A stretch of 64,000 nucleotides of DNA from Oscillospiraceae bacterium (lineage in GTDB: Bacteria; Bacillota; Clostridia; Oscillospirales; Ruminococcaceae). Location of the stretch: contig JAQXHC010000041.1 in NCBI GenBank assembly GCA_029007035.1, forward strand, positions 124,001 through 188,000, written 5' to 3'. The translations under genes were made by a program, and so were the position numbers. Positions within the stretch are counted from its first letter, which is position 1. Each line of letters opens with the position of its first letter. The notes under the pieces are model-generated. The model worked only from the letters and a program-made list of their open reading frames with translations. It ran no database searches and was not told the DNA's origin. This document shows, piece by piece, positions 6,224 through 28,425 of this stretch.

Positions 6224-6252
6224 TTGACATTTGTTTTATGGAATGATATAAT
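6224..6252 (+). promoter_or_regulatory. Sigma-A promoter for hpt
   Basis: TTGACA at 6224-6229 and TATAAT at 6247-6252, spaced by exactly 17 bases, so both boxes match consensus fully. It lies just after the transketolase terminator. Transcription would begin near 6259, leaving a leader of about 125 bases before the hpt start. Confidence 0.9.
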
Positions 6253-22160: not shown

Positions 22161-22213
22161 AAAAAATGCACCTCTGTACCGGCTTTTGGTACAGAGGTGC
22201 TGCTTTTATTTTT
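22161..22213. terminator. Bidirectional terminator between GH105 and the ECF operon
   Basis: Perfect 13-bp stem (22168-22180 with 22188-22200), 7-base loop, A-run on the left and T-rich tract on the right. It can end the + strand sugar operon and the - strand ECF operon. Confidence 0.9.
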
Positions 22214-22904
22214 ACTTACCTGCCTGACGCTCAATAAGAACGGACGCTCTGCTGAGCTTCCGACCGAAGCTGTCGGAAATTAGAAACAGAAAAATCACAT
22301 TAGACACTGCGTAAACTGCAGTAAACGGAAGCGATGAAATTACTGCCGCTTTGTAAAGTTCGGGACTGAAGCTGCCGTTATACCAGATAACAGTCCAGAC
22401 ATCGGCAACAAGGGAATAAAATACACCTGACATCGCTCCGTAAACAAGCAGTATCAGTTTGCTTCTTTTCAGCGGATATGACAGAATTCCTGCAATGAAG
22501 CCGATAAGTCCCCATGCAAGCATCTGGAAAGGAGTCCATGCACCGTGTCCGAAATATATGTTGGAAATCAATGCAGTCAGCGCGCCTGTCAGGAATCCAC
22601 CCTGCGCGGTGAGGTACATTCCGCTTATTATGACCATTGCAGTAACCGGTTTAAATGCAGGTATCGGTGCAAAAATGAAACGTCCTGCAACTGAAAGTGC
22701 AGTCATAACGGCAAGGAGAACCGCATATCTGGACGATACTCTCCTCCGCTCAAATGACATCGCAAATCCTGCACACGACACAGCTGCAATGATCAGAGAA
22801 GAAAGTGTATAGCTTTTTTTGCTCAGAAGTACGGCACACAATATACAGACTGTTCCGCATAACGGGGCTGCTGCGGCTTTCCGGAACGATTTTAATTCAG
22901 ACAT
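22212..22904 (-). CDS. ECF transporter substrate-binding (S) component, probably corrinoid
   Basis: Integral membrane vitamin-binding subunit, 230 residues, with about six helices in an ECF S-component pattern (KPVTAMVIISGMYLTAQGGFLTGALTALISNIYFGHGAWTPFQMLAWGLIGFIAG in outline). This belongs to the PF12822-like group that includes candidate cobalamin S-components. ATG 22904 overlaps the stop of the ATPase gene and follows GGAGGG; an upstream in-frame TTG at 22922 is less likely. It is the last gene of an operon with EcfA, EcfT, two intrinsic-factor-like proteins and a cobalamin-riboswitch-like leader, which is why I favour a corrinoid as substrate. Confidence 0.82.
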   Translation of the reverse strand: MSELKSFRKAAAAPLCGTVCILCAVLLSKKSYTLSSLIIAAVSCAGFAMSFERRRVSSRYAVLLAVMTALSVAGRFIFAPIPAFKPVTAMVIISGMYLTAQGGFLTGALTALISNIYFGHGAWTPFQMLAWGLIGFIAGILSYPLKRSKLILLVYGAMSGVFYSLVADVWTVIWYNGSFSPELYKAAVISSLPFTAVYAVSNVIFLFLISDSFGRKLSRASVLIERQAGK

Positions 22905-24522
22905 TTCCGCGCCCTCCGACAATCGGGTTCCGGCGGCAAAGCTCCGAAAGCTGAGCCGCAGTTACCGCGCCCGAGCAGATCCCTCTTGACATTTTTGCTG
23001 CCTCTGTGGTATAAAAAATTCCTTCTGCAAACAGCTCGCGCGGTGTCATGACTGACATAACCGAACCATCAAAAAAAATTCCGCATCTGTCTGCACATTC
23101 AGCAGCAAGCTCAGTGTCATGGGTTACGATTATTACGGTTGTGCCATTGCCGATAAGACTTTTAATTATTTCAGTGACGCGGCTTCTGAAAAATCCGTCA
23201 AGACCTTTTGTGGGTTCATCGAGGAGGATTATCTGCTTGTTCCGGCTGAGCAGAACGGCAAGACCGAGCAGCTGAGCCTGACCTCCGCTCAGGTCAAACG
23301 GGTGCATATCAGTCAGCTCCGAAAAGTCGTAGATATCTGAAAAATCTGCACCGTCAAGCACTTCGCCGACCGTATCGCCGAGGAACAGACATCTCACATC
23401 CTGCGGCAGGATTCCTACATTATCTGTGGATTTTTTCAAAGATCTTCCGAAAATTTCGATTTTTCCGCAGTATGGCTTAACTATACCGGAAATAACCGAA
23501 AGGAGAGTACTTTTACCGCTTCCGTTGCCGCCGAGAACAGCAAAGCATTCGCCTTTTTTTACTTCGAGGTCGGCGTGGCTTATAATATCTCTGCCTTTTC
23601 CGCTGTAAGCAAAGCATACATTGTTCAGCCTGAGAGCCGTTTCGTCCGAACGGATTCCGGGCGTTTCAGCGATGGATTTCCCCTCCAGACCGAAAGATGT
23701 GCGAAGCATATTCCTGCTCTCGCTGAGTCTGAGCGGAGGTGAAATATTTCCGGTTTGTTCCGCGCAGTTATTCCAAATTTGCAGTCCGCAGGGCATTGAT
23801 GAGCCCAGACTCGGACTCATGCACATTTTTTTCACTGCGGCTTTCGGAAAATCAAATGCACCGACTTTTCCGTTTTCGAGGAAAAGGACTCTGTCCGCAA
23901 CTGAAAGCAGTTCCGAAAAGCGGTGCTCCGCGATGATAACAGTTATTGAAAGCTCTCGTGTGAGCCGGTAAAGTGTACGGATAAATTCTCCCGAAGCGAT
24001 AGGGTCGAGCTGCGCCGTGGGTTCATCAAGCAGCAGCAGCTTAGGGTACATTGCCACTGCTGAAGCAAGATTAAGCAGTTGAAGCTGACCGCCCGAAAGG
24101 GTCGAAAGCTCTGCGTCAAGGATGTCGGAAAGACTGAAGAATACAGAGATTTCTGCAATTCTGCGGTGTATTTCGTTTTGCGGAAGTCCAAGACTTTCAC
24201 AGCCGAATGCAAGCTCGCTTCGCACTCGGTCGGTTACTGTCTGATTTTCGGGACGCTGCATAACATAGCCGATTTCCGATGCACTTTGCTTGCTCGGAAC
24301 CGACGAAATATCCATTCCGTCGAAAAACAGGCAGCCGCTTCGGATGCCATTCGGGGCAAGCTCGGGTTTCATGCTTTTCAAAAGCGTAGTTTTTCCGCAC
24401 GCCGTCGCTCCGCAAAGTAGGATCAGCTCGCCTTCGTTTACTGAAAAGCTTACATTATCAAGTATTTTATGTCCGCCGAGGGTATATGAAAAGGAAAATC
24501 CATCGGACTTAATCAGCTCCAT
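22897..24522 (-). CDS. ECF transporter ATPase with two fused ABC domains
   Basis: A 541-residue protein combining EcfA1- and EcfA2-like domains in one chain. Domain 1 (about 1-230) has Walker A CGATACGKTTLL, signature LSGGQLQLLNLASAV and Walker B KLLLLDEPTAQLD. Domain 2 (about 290-520) has GGNGSGKSTLL, signature DLSGGQAQLLGLAVLL and Walker B IILLDEPTKGLDG. The linker of about 60 residues is serine-rich. It energises the EcfT/S-component complex. Its start overlaps the EcfT gene by 14 bases and its stop overlaps the S-component gene by 8. Confidence 0.93.
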   Translation of the reverse strand: MELIKSDGFSFSYTLGGHKILDNVSFSVNEGELILLCGATACGKTTLLKSMKPELAPNGIRSGCLFFDGMDISSVPSKQSASEIGYVMQRPENQTVTDRVRSELAFGCESLGLPQNEIHRRIAEISVFFSLSDILDAELSTLSGGQLQLLNLASAVAMYPKLLLLDEPTAQLDPIASGEFIRTLYRLTRELSITVIIAEHRFSELLSVADRVLFLENGKVGAFDFPKAAVKKMCMSPSLGSSMPCGLQIWNNCAEQTGNISPPLRLSESRNMLRTSFGLEGKSIAETPGIRSDETALRLNNVCFAYSGKGRDIISHADLEVKKGECFAVLGGNGSGKSTLLSVISGIVKPYCGKIEIFGRSLKKSTDNVGILPQDVRCLFLGDTVGEVLDGADFSDIYDFSELTDMHPFDLSGGQAQLLGLAVLLSRNKQIILLDEPTKGLDGFFRSRVTEIIKSLIGNGTTVIIVTHDTELAAECADRCGIFFDGSVMSVMTPRELFAEGIFYTTEAAKMSRGICSGAVTAAQLSELCRRNPIVGGRGNV

Positions 24523-25381
24523 TCCGGCAAGCCTCCTTTTTTTTATGATTTATAATTAGGTCCGAGATAACCGGCAGCAGAAAGGTCACGGATACCGAGA
24601 CAGATAAAACAATCACAGTTTCAGAACAATCGGGAAATTTAATAATCGGATAGAACGAAACCTCTGCAGAATCACTGTAAACCGTGGTAAGAAAAATAAA
24701 TACCGCACTTACGGCAATGAAAAGAGCGTCTTTCCGACGAAAACGGAAACGGCTGTAAGAGGTTCGTCCTCCAAGCTCAAAGCCTCGTGCGCTCATTGAG
24801 TCAGCGGCAGACATTCCGTCCTCGATCGTCCTTGTTACAAGAGCTGAAAAAATACGCATTTTCCGTTTTATTCGGCTCATTAGAGTGATATTGTCTCCGT
24901 TGGAATTGTCGGGATTACAGTCGCTGAGCTGTCTGCTCTGCCGCAGAAGCTTTGGTACAAATCCGACGGTCATCATCAGAATTGCCGTAATTCTCGGGGA
25001 CAGCCTGCCTGTCAGACAAAAAAGCCGCTCGCTTGTCATTGAAGCAGACAAAGCCCTGCACCAGATAATCCCGGCAAGCAGGCGCAAAGAACTGTCCAGT
25101 CCGAAGAATACAGCCTCCAGAGTGACCGCTTTGCCATTAATGAAAATCAGAGGAGTCGCCCCTTTCCGGACAAACAGCGGATTGAGAGCTGCCATGAGTA
25201 CAAACAGGGCAAAATAGCCCAGAAGCTCTCTCCTAATCGTTTTCTCATTCTTTAGTCTCAGCAGAACCAGTGCTGCTCCTATCAGTGATATACCGACATA
25301 TATCGGGTGATTGACAAGCATTAGACCTGCGAGCATTGATGAAAAAAATACCAGCTCGGTTATCGGGTGAAAATTATTCAT
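24509..25381 (-). CDS. ECF transporter transmembrane coupling protein
   Basis: EcfT scaffold subunit linking the ATPases to the S-component, 290 residues with about five to six helices. Membrane segments are followed by a long cytoplasmic coupling region that has the family motifs around GLDSSLRLLAGIIWCRALSASM and DGMSAADSMSARGFELGGRT; the last corresponds to the conserved EcfT Ala-Arg-Gly motif. ATG 25381 overlaps the stop of the upstream intrinsic-factor-like gene (ATGAATAA). The open frame extends further upstream but has no supporting ribosome binding site. Confidence 0.9.
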   Translation of the reverse strand: MNNFHPITELVFFSSMLAGLMLVNHPIYVGISLIGAALVLLRLKNEKTIRRELLGYFALFVLMAALNPLFVRKGATPLIFINGKAVTLEAVFFGLDSSLRLLAGIIWCRALSASMTSERLFCLTGRLSPRITAILMMTVGFVPKLLRQSRQLSDCNPDNSNGDNITLMSRIKRKMRIFSALVTRTIEDGMSAADSMSARGFELGGRTSYSRFRFRRKDALFIAVSAVFIFLTTVYSDSAEVSFYPIIKFPDCSETVIVLSVSVSVTFLLPVISDLIINHKKKEACRNGAD

Positions 25382-27176
25382 CTTCAATGTCCTTTCCGAT
25401 ATTTCGGGTATAAATAAATTCGACACGGTCACCGTCGCTCAGCTCATAGTTTCCGCAGCCGACCGACGGAAATTCCCCGTTTACCATATACATCCACCCC
25501 GACATCTCACCAAAATCAAATTCGTAGAGTCCGTCGATTCCTTTGATATAAGCATCACTGCCAGTTAACCCGTCATAGTCGATAGAGATTTTATGATATG
25601 CGAGAACGCGCTCCAGAGCCGAAAAAGCCGTGTCACCGTCAATCAGTACGTATTCCGTTTCGGGAATTATTATTCTGCCGCTTTCTGCATTTTCAGCATT
25701 AACTTCGAGGGTGAAGGTGAGACTATCAGGCTGAACGTCGTCGATGTGACGGCGGTAGTATTCCTCGGGTGTCTGAATGTTAATCCACATTATCGTGCCG
25801 ATACAGACGGCGCTCAAAGCTCCGCCTGCAGCCGCTTTTTTGATGCTGAGCTGTTTTCGTGCCGCAAGGTAAATCAAAGTTACGCCATAAGTTACGGCAA
25901 TCATCGCTGCTGCGGCATATTTCCACATCGGGGCGTTGTTACCGCTTTCGTCTGCGGTGAAAATAACCGATTCAGTATTTGTTTCGGTTACCGCCGAAGT
26001 TATGGTCTCAACGGAATTCTGGGTGCTGCTTCGGGAAGACACAGCGGTTTTCGTTTCCGAAGCAGTTGTAATGCTGTTAGCAATTGCGGTTATGGTTTCA
26101 GCAGCAGCCGTTTCGGTCTGTGAATTGGCGGTTACGGCTTCGGTCGCAGAAGTATCCGCAGGTACTGTTGCTGTTACATCGGTGTGGACGGTGGTTACGG
26201 CTGATTCTGTCGGATTGACCGGAGCTTCGGAGACAGACTGAGGCTGAGTCGGTATCATTGACGGAGTACCGAATTGATATGGAATATAAAAGCTTCCGCA
26301 GTTAAGCGATGTTATTGCCATAAATGCCTGAACCGTTGCGGTGGAGTTGGATTTTCCGCCATGAATATGGGAAAATCCTCCGTCGGAATTTCTAAAGCTC
26401 ATGAGTGCATCTGCAGCTGTATTTCCGTTTTTGATAAATCGGCTGTCAGAGAAAATATCGATGCCGAGAGCGGTGAGTGCAATAATAACCTGAGAGCAGC
26501 TTTCGGAACTTTCAGCGCCAAAACTTTTCCAGCCGCCGTTGTCAAGCTGCGATACGGAAAGTCTGTTCAAAGCAGTTTCAACCGCATGATCATAGCCGCT
26601 GATTCCGGAAAGGGCACATAATGCCATTGAAGTTACATCGGGGTCGGAAACATTTCCGCTCAAGGCCCAGCCGCCGTCGTCCAGCTGCCTGGAAACAATA
26701 TCATCTGCGGCTTTGCGGGTATCGCCGCAGCCCGAAAGCTTCATCAGAATCAGTCCGTATATTTCGCTCATAATGCCGAGTCTGCCGTAAGTTTCGTCAA
26801 GAACAGCAGACGCGTTATCCGTAAATTCGCCCGTCATGATACGCGAAATGGCAATTCTCTGGCGTTCCGTGGCGTTGCCGGCGTCAGATTTCCTGTCGAG
26901 AGCTGCAAGGTATGAGGAAAAGTCGTATTCTCCGCTTCGTGCAAAGGAACAGGCATACCAGTCAGCCTCACTTGTACCTGCTTTTTGAGTAATATAGCCG
27001 TTTATGAAGCTCTGAATATCGGCGCTGTCTGCTTCTGACAGTCTGTACTCTGTAATTTTATCGGCTTCGGTTTTGAAATCAAAGCTCTCTGTGTACACAG
27101 TGACGGTAATTCCCGAAAAAAGAGCGAGAATTACCGCCATTGCCGTACATACAATCCGTATGCTCAGTTTATTCAT
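25374..27176 (-). CDS. Membrane-anchored intrinsic-factor-like protein: squalene-cyclase-type repeats plus DUF4430
   Basis: A 600-residue protein with an N-terminal signal/anchor (about 8-28). Helical repeats of the prenyltransferase/squalene-cyclase type (about 50-295) include QLDDGGWA, QLDNGGWK and RNSDGGFS. A Thr/Ser/Ala linker (about 310-405) follows, then two transmembrane helices (417-438, 447-467) joined by a basic turn. The C-terminal domain (485-592) is DUF4430-like, with GWMYMVNGEFPSVGCGNYELSDGDRVEFIYT. An alpha6/alpha6 barrel plus this beta domain is the architecture of eukaryotic intrinsic factor and transcobalamin. Both halves should face outward, tethered by the helical hairpin. 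It is in an operon with ECF transporter genes. Corrinoid capture is inference from fold and context. Confidence 0.85.
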   Translation of the reverse strand: MNKLSIRIVCTAMAVILALFSGITVTVYTESFDFKTEADKITEYRLSEADSADIQSFINGYITQKAGTSEADWYACSFARSGEYDFSSYLAALDRKSDAGNATERQRIAISRIMTGEFTDNASAVLDETYGRLGIMSEIYGLILMKLSGCGDTRKAADDIVSRQLDDGGWALSGNVSDPDVTSMALCALSGISGYDHAVETALNRLSVSQLDNGGWKSFGAESSESCSQVIIALTALGIDIFSDSRFIKNGNTAADALMSFRNSDGGFSHIHGGKSNSTATVQAFMAITSLNCGSFYIPYQFGTPSMIPTQPQSVSEAPVNPTESAVTTVHTDVTATVPADTSATEAVTANSQTETAAAETITAIANSITTASETKTAVSSRSSTQNSVETITSAVTETNTESVIFTADESGNNAPMWKYAAAAMIAVTYGVTLIYLAARKQLSIKKAAAGGALSAVCIGTIMWINIQTPEEYYRRHIDDVQPDSLTFTLEVNAENAESGRIIIPETEYVLIDGDTAFSALERVLAYHKISIDYDGLTGSDAYIKGIDGLYEFDFGEMSGWMYMVNGEFPSVGCGNYELSDGDRVEFIYTRNIGKDIEDE

Positions 27177-28087
27177 TTGTTTTTCTCAGCCATAAATTCC
27201 TCAAATGTGAATTTTTCTGTGCTTGTTGAGGCGGCAGCATAATATGCAAGTATATTTGAAGCGTCGACCGCGTCAATACAACCGCTGCCGTCGGTGTCGG
27301 CTGAGACGGAAATCAGCGTTCCTGCACCTGTTCCAAGATCAGCGTATGTCTTAAGAATTTCCGATGCGTCCTTTGCGTCAATAACCGTATCACAGTTGAC
27401 ATCACCGACAGTCCGAATCGGTTCGGATCGCAGCACGAGGGGAATTCCTGAGTCTGAATATTTCTCATAGAAAATATCTCCGGAATCCGGATTTTTAACA
27501 GTCACGCTTCCGTTTTCATCTGTCAGGTACGTCTCTCCGCCGCAGTATACCGTCATTCCGACAACAGGATTCACAGTTGTGATCGGATTCCATTCCGGAT
27601 CATAGGATATATCGCTGCTTGAAAATGTAAGTGTATTTCCGTCTGCGGTCATTTCTGGGAACTGCATACCGACTCCGTAAGGGTCGCCGTAGAAAAGCAC
27701 AAGCTCGTCTCCGTCACTGATCCCGAATTCTGCCGCTGTTACTGACGGTTCAATACCGTTCACTCTGTAAAGCCAGCCGTCCCAGCCGCCGAAGCTTGCG
27801 GCAGTATCGCCGTTGACAGCTGTGATATAGCCGTCGCTGAGTCCGGTGATTTCGAATCCGTCGTCGATTCTGTCTGCAAATTCAAGCACGTCCGAAGCCG
27901 AAACATCATTTCCCTTAGCCGGATAATAAACGTCCTTGTCGCAGAAACATTTATTGATTCCTTCAATGCGTACAGAAACCCTGACATAGCCAATTCCGTC
28001 AGCGGCAGCGGAATTCATTGGCAGACAGGCGGTAAGCATTGAAGCTCCGACGAGTGAAATCAGCATTTTTTTTGTTGTTTTTTTCAT
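27173..28087 (-). CDS. Secreted DUF4430-domain protein with dockerin
   Basis: First gene of the ECF operon, 304 residues. The signal segment is at 1-29. LTAC at 18-21 could also be a lipobox, so lipid anchoring is possible. A DUF4430 domain (about 33-136) contains GGWDGWLYRVNG and FGISDGDELVLFYGDP, matching the beta domain of the next gene's product and of transcobalamin-type proteins. A beta linker domain follows (140-225). A type I dockerin (227-288) has loops GDVNCDTVIDAKDA and ADTDGSGCIDAVDA. It should therefore attach to a cohesin on the cell-surface scaffold. It overlaps the next gene by 4 bases. The role inferred is cellulosome-tethered corrinoid capture; other small ligands remain possible. 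Confidence 0.85.
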   Translation of the reverse strand: MKKTTKKMLISLVGASMLTACLPMNSAAADGIGYVRVSVRIEGINKCFCDKDVYYPAKGNDVSASDVLEFADRIDDGFEITGLSDGYITAVNGDTAASFGGWDGWLYRVNGIEPSVTAAEFGISDGDELVLFYGDPYGVGMQFPEMTADGNTLTFSSSDISYDPEWNPITTVNPVVGMTVYCGGETYLTDENGSVTVKNPDSGDIFYEKYSDSGIPLVLRSEPIRTVGDVNCDTVIDAKDASEILKTYADLGTGAGTLISVSADTDGSGCIDAVDASNILAYYAAASTSTEKFTFEEFMAEKNK

Positions 28088-28300
28088 AATAAAAACTCCC
28101 TTGCATAGATTTCAGCAATAATCAGAGCTATAACCAAATGCAAAAGAGTTTGATTGAACTTTTAATTTGCCGTAAATACATATATTGTAAACGTCAGATT
28201 GATTCGGAGTTTACTATAATTACGGCTTAAAACGGTCACTCTTCATACACCCAAAAGTGTTATAGCAGAAACTATATACCGATTCCGTTTTTTAAACGGG

Positions 28301-28386
28301 AATACACGGGCGATCCGACTTGTGCGTTAAACGCAGATACGGTAATGGCTGTTGCGGCAGATTCTCACTGCGCTTCTCCCGTATTA
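28301..28386 (-). ncRNA. Cobalamin riboswitch-like leader
   Basis: Minus-strand leader RNA starting about ten bases after the promoter. Reading 5'-3' it has GGGAGAAG, then a hairpin GCAGTGAGAATCTGC (the G-GTGA-AATC pattern of cobalamin riboswitches) and CGCAACAGCCATTACCGT. It then has AAGTCGGATCGCCCG, which resembles the B12 box. Outer ends AATACGGG (28385-28378) and CCCGTGTATT (28310-28301) can pair as P1. A further hairpin follows at about 28282-28300. The match is by eye to the known consensus and looks like a compact variant. The downstream ECF/intrinsic-factor-like genes support it. Confidence 0.75.
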
Positions 28387-28396
28387 TTCGCTTTAT

Positions 28397-28425
28397 ATTA
28401 TATCATGGAAGCTCAGGTTTGTCAA
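28397..28425 (-). promoter_or_regulatory. Promoter of the riboswitch-led ECF operon
   Basis: On the minus strand, TTGACA at 28425-28420 and TATAAT at 28402-28397 with a 17-base spacer, a full consensus match. The transcript would have a leader of about 300 bases before the first start codon at 28087. After the riboswitch core, 28088-28300 holds further short hairpins and the ribosome binding site GGGAG but no gene. Confidence 0.9.

Follow-up and report, generated by a model that had tools for sequence, protein, structure and literature searches.

How do Gram-positive gut bacteria capture vitamin B12 outside the cell? Seemingly no test of this process has been published, though operons that may serve it are widespread in gut Clostridia. 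The question is raised by a five-gene operon in a 64,000-nucleotide stretch of DNA from a fibre-degrading Oscillospiraceae bacterium of the gut (assembly GCA_029007035.1, contig JAQXHC010000041.1, positions 124,001 to 188,000), hereafter called the window. Our analyses make it quite likely that this operon encodes a system for corrinoid capture and for import by an energy-coupling factor (ECF) transporter, and its secreted capture head, P1, seems to be coupled to the anchoring system of the cellulosome. The kind of operon has been predicted before; the cellulosome coupling and the exchange of tethers among relatives are the part that looks new.

The operon occupies the minus strand from 28425 to 22168, with a promoter, a cobalamin riboswitch, five genes that overlap their neighbours by a few bases, and a terminator. 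In 5' to 3' order, the genes code for P1, the membrane protein P2, EcfT, a fused EcfA-EcfA' ATPase and an S-component (Table 1). A preliminary description of this DNA, made without database searches, had proposed one promoter ahead of five overlapping genes, and both features were borne out. Exact matches to the promoter consensus occur twice in the window, compared with 0.00 expected from 100 shuffles; the other one is at 6224-6252 on the plus strand.

Table 1. Coordinates of the operon features in the window, in order of transcription
Feature	Position	Strand	Basis and remarks
Promoter, sigma-70/sigma-A type, TTGACA-N17-TATAAT	28397..28425	-	Exact consensus, 12/12; TG precedes the second hexamer (extended)
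Cobalamin (AdoCbl-type) riboswitch aptamer	28266..28404	-	RF01482 and hold-out covariance model
Predicted hairpin, 59 nt, pairing the P1 ribosome-binding site AAGGGAG	28093..28151	-	Minimum-energy leader fold, z -3.5
P1, secreted capture protein (putative), 304 aa	27173..28087	-	Signal sequence by eye, SLBB/DUF4430 head, Ig-like domain, dockerin
P1 SLBB domain, residues 31-138	27674..27997	-	Transcobalamin beta-domain fold (predicted)
P1 dockerin, residues 228-303	27179..27406	-	Nearest to ScaH dockerin; Pfam and PDB comparison
P2, membrane-anchored toroid and SLBB protein, 600 aa	25374..27176	-	Pfam, predicted structure
P2 alpha/alpha toroid, residues 30-303	26268..27089	-	Predicted structure
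P2 transmembrane hairpin, residues 417-464, linker/SLBB junction	25785..25928	-	Predicted structure, sequence features
P2 SLBB/DUF4430 domain, residues 485-592	25401..25724	-	Pfam, predicted structure
EcfT (CbiQ-like), one ARG motif	24509..25381	-	ATG 25381; GTG 25432 possible start
EcfA-EcfA', fused double ATPase, 541 aa	22897..24522	-	Pfam, NCBIfam, motifs
S-component, CbrT-like, 236 aa	22212..22922	-	PDB sequence and profile comparison
Terminator-like hairpin closing the operon	22168..22200	-	In common with the converging gene

The leader had been called cobalamin-riboswitch-like, and covariance models support this identification. The adenosylcobalamin (AdoCbl) family RF01482 gives the aptamer 38.9 bits against a gathering cut-off of 50, with E = 1e-5 for the 481 bases searched, and no Rfam family reaches the gathering score in the window. 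We regard the latter result as a threshold effect, as both RF01482 below cut-off and a hold-out model match. This model, R2, was built from the leaders of 16 relatives, leaving out the window to avoid circularity. At a threshold as lax as E = 10 it recognizes one site in the 64 kb, with 73 bits and a rough E-value of 5e-19; this match sits at the expected place and strand and spans the whole aptamer. Six of 17 relatives with a complete operon (L050-L066) have a match of the cobalamin clan (CL00101) at gathering score, and the remaining 11 have a sense-strand match below it (E = 2e-5 to 0.4, some individually weak); in the leader stretches of L081 and L082, which come from partial P2 matches, no riboswitch was found. 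No terminator-like site is listed inside the leader, and we therefore read the switch as translational, with the predicted leader hairpin (Table 1) as its likely on/off platform.

To place the operon among its relatives, we relied on a scan of 84,980 species genomes that gave at least 573 confirmed relatives, the best 80 loci of which were analysed. P2, EcfT, EcfA-EcfA' and the S-component occur together at 64 of the 80 loci, and the first three at 72. A cobalamin riboswitch is present at 59 loci, 51 of them recognized by model R1 and 8 by Rfam, which was applied to 21 of the 29 loci without an R1 match. The predicted linkage of DUF4430/toroid proteins, ECF genes and cobalamin riboswitches is therefore conserved. 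R1 produces 53 matches over the 80 loci, every one on the sense strand, although at least four of these loci (L134, L143, L160 and L189) also served to train it. In 54 loci, the distance of the riboswitch from the assigned operon start is between -450 and +700 bases. Two counts detract from this regularity: five of the 59 riboswitches fall outside that interval, and 21 of the 80 loci have none, 7 of them with less than 250 bases upstream. This arrangement recurs across many gut Clostridia, with Ruminococcus flavefaciens FD-1 (L169), Y1 (L151) and MA2007 (L152) among the named carriers, and P2 matches, some partial, were found in 26 of 60 related genomes. At two loci a second riboswitch match lies within the operon, between the P2 and EcfT genes (L178:9754-9823 and L179:9650-9782). 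Elsewhere in the window's genome, a cobalamin riboswitch that is its only RF00174 match (L049:2948-3170, G000:C37) is located just 3' of a same-strand response-regulator gene and is followed by no same-strand open reading frame of 80 residues or more on its 4.1-kb contig.

P1 and P2 both harbour DUF4430 (PF14478) above the Pfam cut-off of 23.8 (30.7 bits, E = 4.3e-7 and 71.9 bits, E = 5.9e-20, respectively), in agreement with their initial portrayal as a secreted and a membrane DUF4430 protein. The squalene-cyclase-like repeats that had also been attributed to P2 are below cut-off by Pfam but clear in its predicted structure. As had been anticipated, the predicted structures resemble transcobalamin: Foldseek places transcobalamin/intrinsic factor first for P1, with the beta domain matched, and two-domain B12 carriers first for P2, with the toroid and the beta domain matched in one chain. 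The link of both proteins to transcobalamin comes from these predicted structures; a Pfam search with P2 listed no animal B12-carrier family up to E = 1. Several observations weigh against the resemblance. The confidence of the P1 model is middling (mean pLDDT, the predicted local distance difference test, of 65), and its Foldseek rows all fail E = 0.001, the best being 2.2e-3. The alignment of P2 to a B12 carrier covers 339 residues with a root-mean-square deviation of 8.7, transcobalamin is absent from the PDB matches of the P2 and SLBB profiles, and terpene cyclases outscore the B12 carriers on the P2 toroid alone in the VIA list. We considered P2 as a terpene-cyclase-like enzyme and set this idea aside, because the cyclase rows of the VIA list cover the toroid only and Foldseek favours B12 carriers.

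The transporter genes agree with their first assignment as EcfT, fused double EcfA and S-component. Both halves of EcfA-EcfA' contain Walker A, LSGGQ and Walker B (DEP) motifs, and the family scores of EcfT are weak (E = 0.11 for Pfam CbiQ and 1.7e-4 for NCBIfam CbiQ, both under cut-off). The S-component is homologous to CbrT, its closest solved relative being chain A of 6FNP (ECF-CbrT), with E = 8.6e-8 by sequence and 1.3e-15 by profile, followed by the next match at 7.8e-4. Like the window's transporter, ECF-CbrT has an EcfT and two ATPases. According to the available part of its description, however, CbrT of Lactobacillus delbrueckii shares its ECF module with other S-components, whereas the operon has its own EcfT and EcfA-EcfA', and the passages available do not mention extracellular capture proteins for CbrT, whereas the window adds P1 and P2 (PMC5997447). 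The window's S-component also differs by an N-terminal extension of ~60 residues with two extra hydrophobic segments; a matching extension is present in 12 aligned relatives.

B12 riboswitches can also control ECF systems for precursors, and the operon might import a corrinoid precursor such as cobinamide or cobyrinate, or a lower-ligand base, in place of complete cobamides. CbrT takes up cobinamide in addition to cobalamin, in the portion of the report available (PMC5997447). On the other side, the S-component is nearest to CbrT, in a comparison set without an alpha-ribazole transporter, and the corrin pathway marker was not found in the window's genome (87% complete). Animal carriers of the transcobalamin fold bind whole corrinoids, and we regard precursor import as improbable. 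An importer of cobalt or another small ligand, with SLBB and toroid proteins that bind a non-corrinoid, appears very improbable. In its favour, EcfT is CbiQ-like, the SLBB superfamily has been predicted to bind varied ligands (PMC1796856, in part), and B12 riboswitches were found at none of four genes for SLBB proteins outside such operons (L281, L282, L283 and L285). Against it stand the absence of the CbiM and CbiN families from the Pfam hits of the five operon proteins, the CbrT-like S-component, the conserved cobalamin riboswitch and the B12 carriers that top the Foldseek ranking for P1 and P2.

The B12 economy of the host genomes was also considered. The window's genome encodes a 798-residue frame with a B12-binding domain, presumably the size of methionine synthase. 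CbiC had no match in this genome, an absence that its completeness of 87% makes weak on its own, nor in two genomes with a dockerin form of the operon, G030 (99% complete) and G038 (98%). Counting against the main reading, CbiC is present in 10 of 12 genomes tested with sortase-type operons. It follows that scavenging is not limited to auxotrophs. The apparent association of the dockerin form with the lack of CbiC (0/3 vs 10/12) involves too few lineages to stand and was dropped.

From these features we infer corrinoid binding, the order of hand-over, the direction of regulation and the docking partner as follows. When adenosylcobalamin is scarce, the riboswitch would free the ribosome-binding site of P1 and the operon would be translated. 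P1 would hold a corrinoid outside the cell by means of its transcobalamin-type beta domain. In the membrane, P2 would close round the corrinoid in the manner of intrinsic factor or transcobalamin, using its alpha toroid and another beta domain. From P2 the corrinoid would go to the CbrT-like S-component, for which the operon's own EcfT and its fused EcfA-EcfA' would supply the ATP drive. The dockerin of P1 would probably sit in a sortase-anchored ScaE-type cohesin and share the cellulosome anchor, most of the relatives examined carrying a sortase-type signal instead.

Surface proteins with toroids and SLBB domains in CbiO/CbiQ operons were described by Burroughs et al. in 2007, who predicted that they scavenge B12 (PMC1796856). 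In the available passages, their systems resemble that of the window in having signal peptides, a toroid-SLBB fusion, a second extracellular SLBB paralogue and genes for an ABC ATPase and a CbiQ-like protein; relative to the same passages, the riboswitch control, the CbrT-like S-component and the membrane hairpin come in here. The word 'dockerin' occurs nowhere in that paper, and the dockerin and cohesin tethers are added by the present work. We found no experimental test of such an SLBB-ECF operon and no dockerin-borne B12 head in the literature searched, mostly without subscription papers and without preprints. The preliminary description knew of no characterised system of this combination; this agrees with the lack of an experimental test in our search, but a B12-scavenging operon of this kind had been predicted in 2007. 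Its proposal of intrinsic-factor-like corrinoid scavenging holds as regards structure, riboswitch, linkage and CbrT kinship, except that it is not unprecedented and that the dockerin had been missed.

In the predicted structures, intrinsic factor, transcobalamin and haptocorrin resemble P2 by their toroid and beta-grasp domain and P1 by the beta domain. They differ in that P2 is membrane-bound, with a ~110-residue linker and the hairpin separating its domains, that its hand-over would be to an ECF transporter, and that no match was found at the level of sequence. A further comparison concerns BtuG and the DUF4465 capture protein of Bacteroides, the folds of which differ from those of P1 and P2. 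According to the parts available of two reports, they too catch B12 at the surface for a membrane transporter (PMC6143338; PMC13398666), but BtuG is an outer-membrane lipoprotein partnered with BtuB (PMC6143338). The operon belongs to the bacterial stock that Burroughs et al. proposed as the source of the animal B12 carriers (PMC1796856, in part). The sortase form of the operon is present in R. flavefaciens FD-1 (L169), which makes the question testable in a cultured strain and by complementation in Escherichia coli.

The C-terminal dockerin of P1, with two calcium-loop repeats, had been overlooked at first. Among PDB entries, it is nearest to the ScaH dockerin (8ajy_B, E = 6.5e-10), followed by a group-2 dockerin (0.0015), by entries for a cellulose-binding protein that we take to be CttA (0.003), and by a group-I dockerin (0.044). 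Fifty dockerin matches were found across the window's genome, and the dockerin of P1 is of a symmetrical subclass common to 11 of 47 other loci. The same genome has five sortase matches and six cohesins by Pfam, to which a ScaE-type query adds a better one: a 309-residue frame (G000 C15) that matches the ScaE cohesin 2zf9 with E = 6.4e-16 and has a sortase-like tail made up of PHTG, a hydrophobic stretch and RKKED. The product of the adjoining gene has a dockerin with a DAKDAS signature and Ala-Lys as in P1. ScaE of R. flavefaciens FD-1, which sortase joins to the cell wall, is bound by dockerins of groups 2 and 4, those of ScaH and CttA among them, and dockerins in this strain are also borne by non-enzymes such as serpins, peptidases and leucine-rich-repeat proteins, as stated in the available part of PMC5301203. 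The window resembles this anchoring by its ScaH-nearest dockerin and by the genome's own ScaE-type cohesin with a sortase-like tail, and differs in that the cargo is a putative vitamin-binding head.

Judged from these sequence comparisons, the chance that the dockerin of P1 plugs into a ScaE-type anchor appears to be even. The nearest solved dockerins belong to ScaE-binding groups, and the neighbour of the genome's ScaE-like gene shares the DAKDAS signature. Three findings pull the other way. The Pfam score of the dockerin, 19.2 bits, is under the cut-off of 22.9; the Gly-Arg recognition pair of FD-1 dockerins that bind ScaE is not in the P1 dockerin, which has Ala-Lys and Ala-Val instead; and the signal-like stretch of P1 contains a lipobox-like LTAC (residues 18-21, window 28025-28036), so that P1 might be anchored to the membrane by a lipid. 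The lipobox-like motif makes us judge ScaE docking less likely, and it raises the standing of an alternative in which the same corrinoid import operates with a tether other than ScaE: P1 would dock elsewhere in the cellulosome, bridge to it as a lipoprotein, or be released free. The missing Gly-Arg pair also fits this alternative, as does the variation of dockerin type by lineage, the dockerin of L168 being nearest to Doc8 (E = 2.3e-16) and to a group-I dockerin (2.4e-7), and that of L284 being alike. However, LTAC is not in the five other dockerin forms aligned, and 51 of 67 relatives have sortase-type ends, which hints at retention at the wall; the two points in favour of ScaE given above apply here as well. 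We take this alternative seriously but consider it rather doubtful.

How P1 may be tethered in relatives was assessed across the same 80 loci. At 67 of them the gene ahead of P2 is P1-like; no gene was found there at 11 loci, and an unrelated gene at 2. By motif rules of our own, in which a dockerin call requires E < 1e-4 in the C-terminal half, the 67 proteins end with strict (37) or relaxed (14) sortase motifs, another hydrophobic stretch (9), a dockerin (3) or none of the recognized ends (4). Sortase-type P1s also gave weak N-terminal hits to dockerins (E ~3e-4 to 0.9), which we rejected, as by eye they resemble EF-hand loops of the SLBB domain. Sortase-type SLBB heads (L050-L063) contain an EF-hand-like loop that reads D-x-D-x-D-G-x-L-T-x-N-D-A and possibly binds calcium; heads of the window's type lack it. 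Operons with dockerin forms are those of the window, L058, L130, L131, L064, L168 and L284, and dockerins are also borne by two P1 homologues, L223 and L224, from the genus of L064. A quick tree built from 83 P2 proteins includes six rows with dockerins, which require 3 changes, against a mean of 5.9 after shuffling; well-supported branches force at least two dockerin changes, with long-branch warnings (L064 beside L198). Among 12 P1 homologues from elsewhere in the order, three have dockerins (one being that of L064), three sortase motifs, two transmembrane segments and four SLH-like ends. The latter four (L230, L231, L232 and L233) bear C-terminal SLH-like repeats, recognized by eye, which would represent another kind of wall tether.

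In some relatives, the head is combined with cohesins. The gene in the P1 position of L168 encodes a ScaE-type cohesin (E = 1.3e-20 to 2zf9, labelled ScaE) followed by SLBB and Ig-like domains and a dockerin. Genome G397 (L284) encodes a protein 83% identical to this one and has both operon and riboswitch, and full-length matches among 125 genomes of the genus were found in G397 and G330 only, the latter at 100% and presumably L168's own. In G397, P2 reads as two overlapping frames (L284:5918-7777), through either a sequencing error or a true split. Outside such operons, a 1869-residue frame (L281:2498-8105, G010:C56) has a dockerin at its N-terminus and LPDTG at its end, and contains in addition one SLBB-Ig unit, a pair of ScaE-type cohesins and a pair of C-type lectin domains; by its domain content, it is an SLBB head built into a scaffoldin.

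We tentatively propose, as a reading somewhat short of an even chance, that the ruminococcal cellulosome doubles as a B12 antenna: transcobalamin-type heads plugged in by dockerins, some with ScaE-type cohesins or within a sortase-anchored scaffoldin, would supply an ECF transporter under riboswitch control. On this reading, the tether on the head has changed at least twice. If the dockerin reading is true, cellulosomes are nutrient-capture platforms too, and the ScaE wall anchor serves vitamins besides enzymes.

SLBB-Ig units also adjoin dockerins in three other non-operon proteins (L282:8587-11161, L283:3368-5276 and L285:2100-4002). Non-operon SLBB proteins were considered as further B12 receptors; given the riboswitch count reported above, this assignment was not retained. 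Of the three proteins, two have leucine-rich repeats and one has two SLBB-Ig units.

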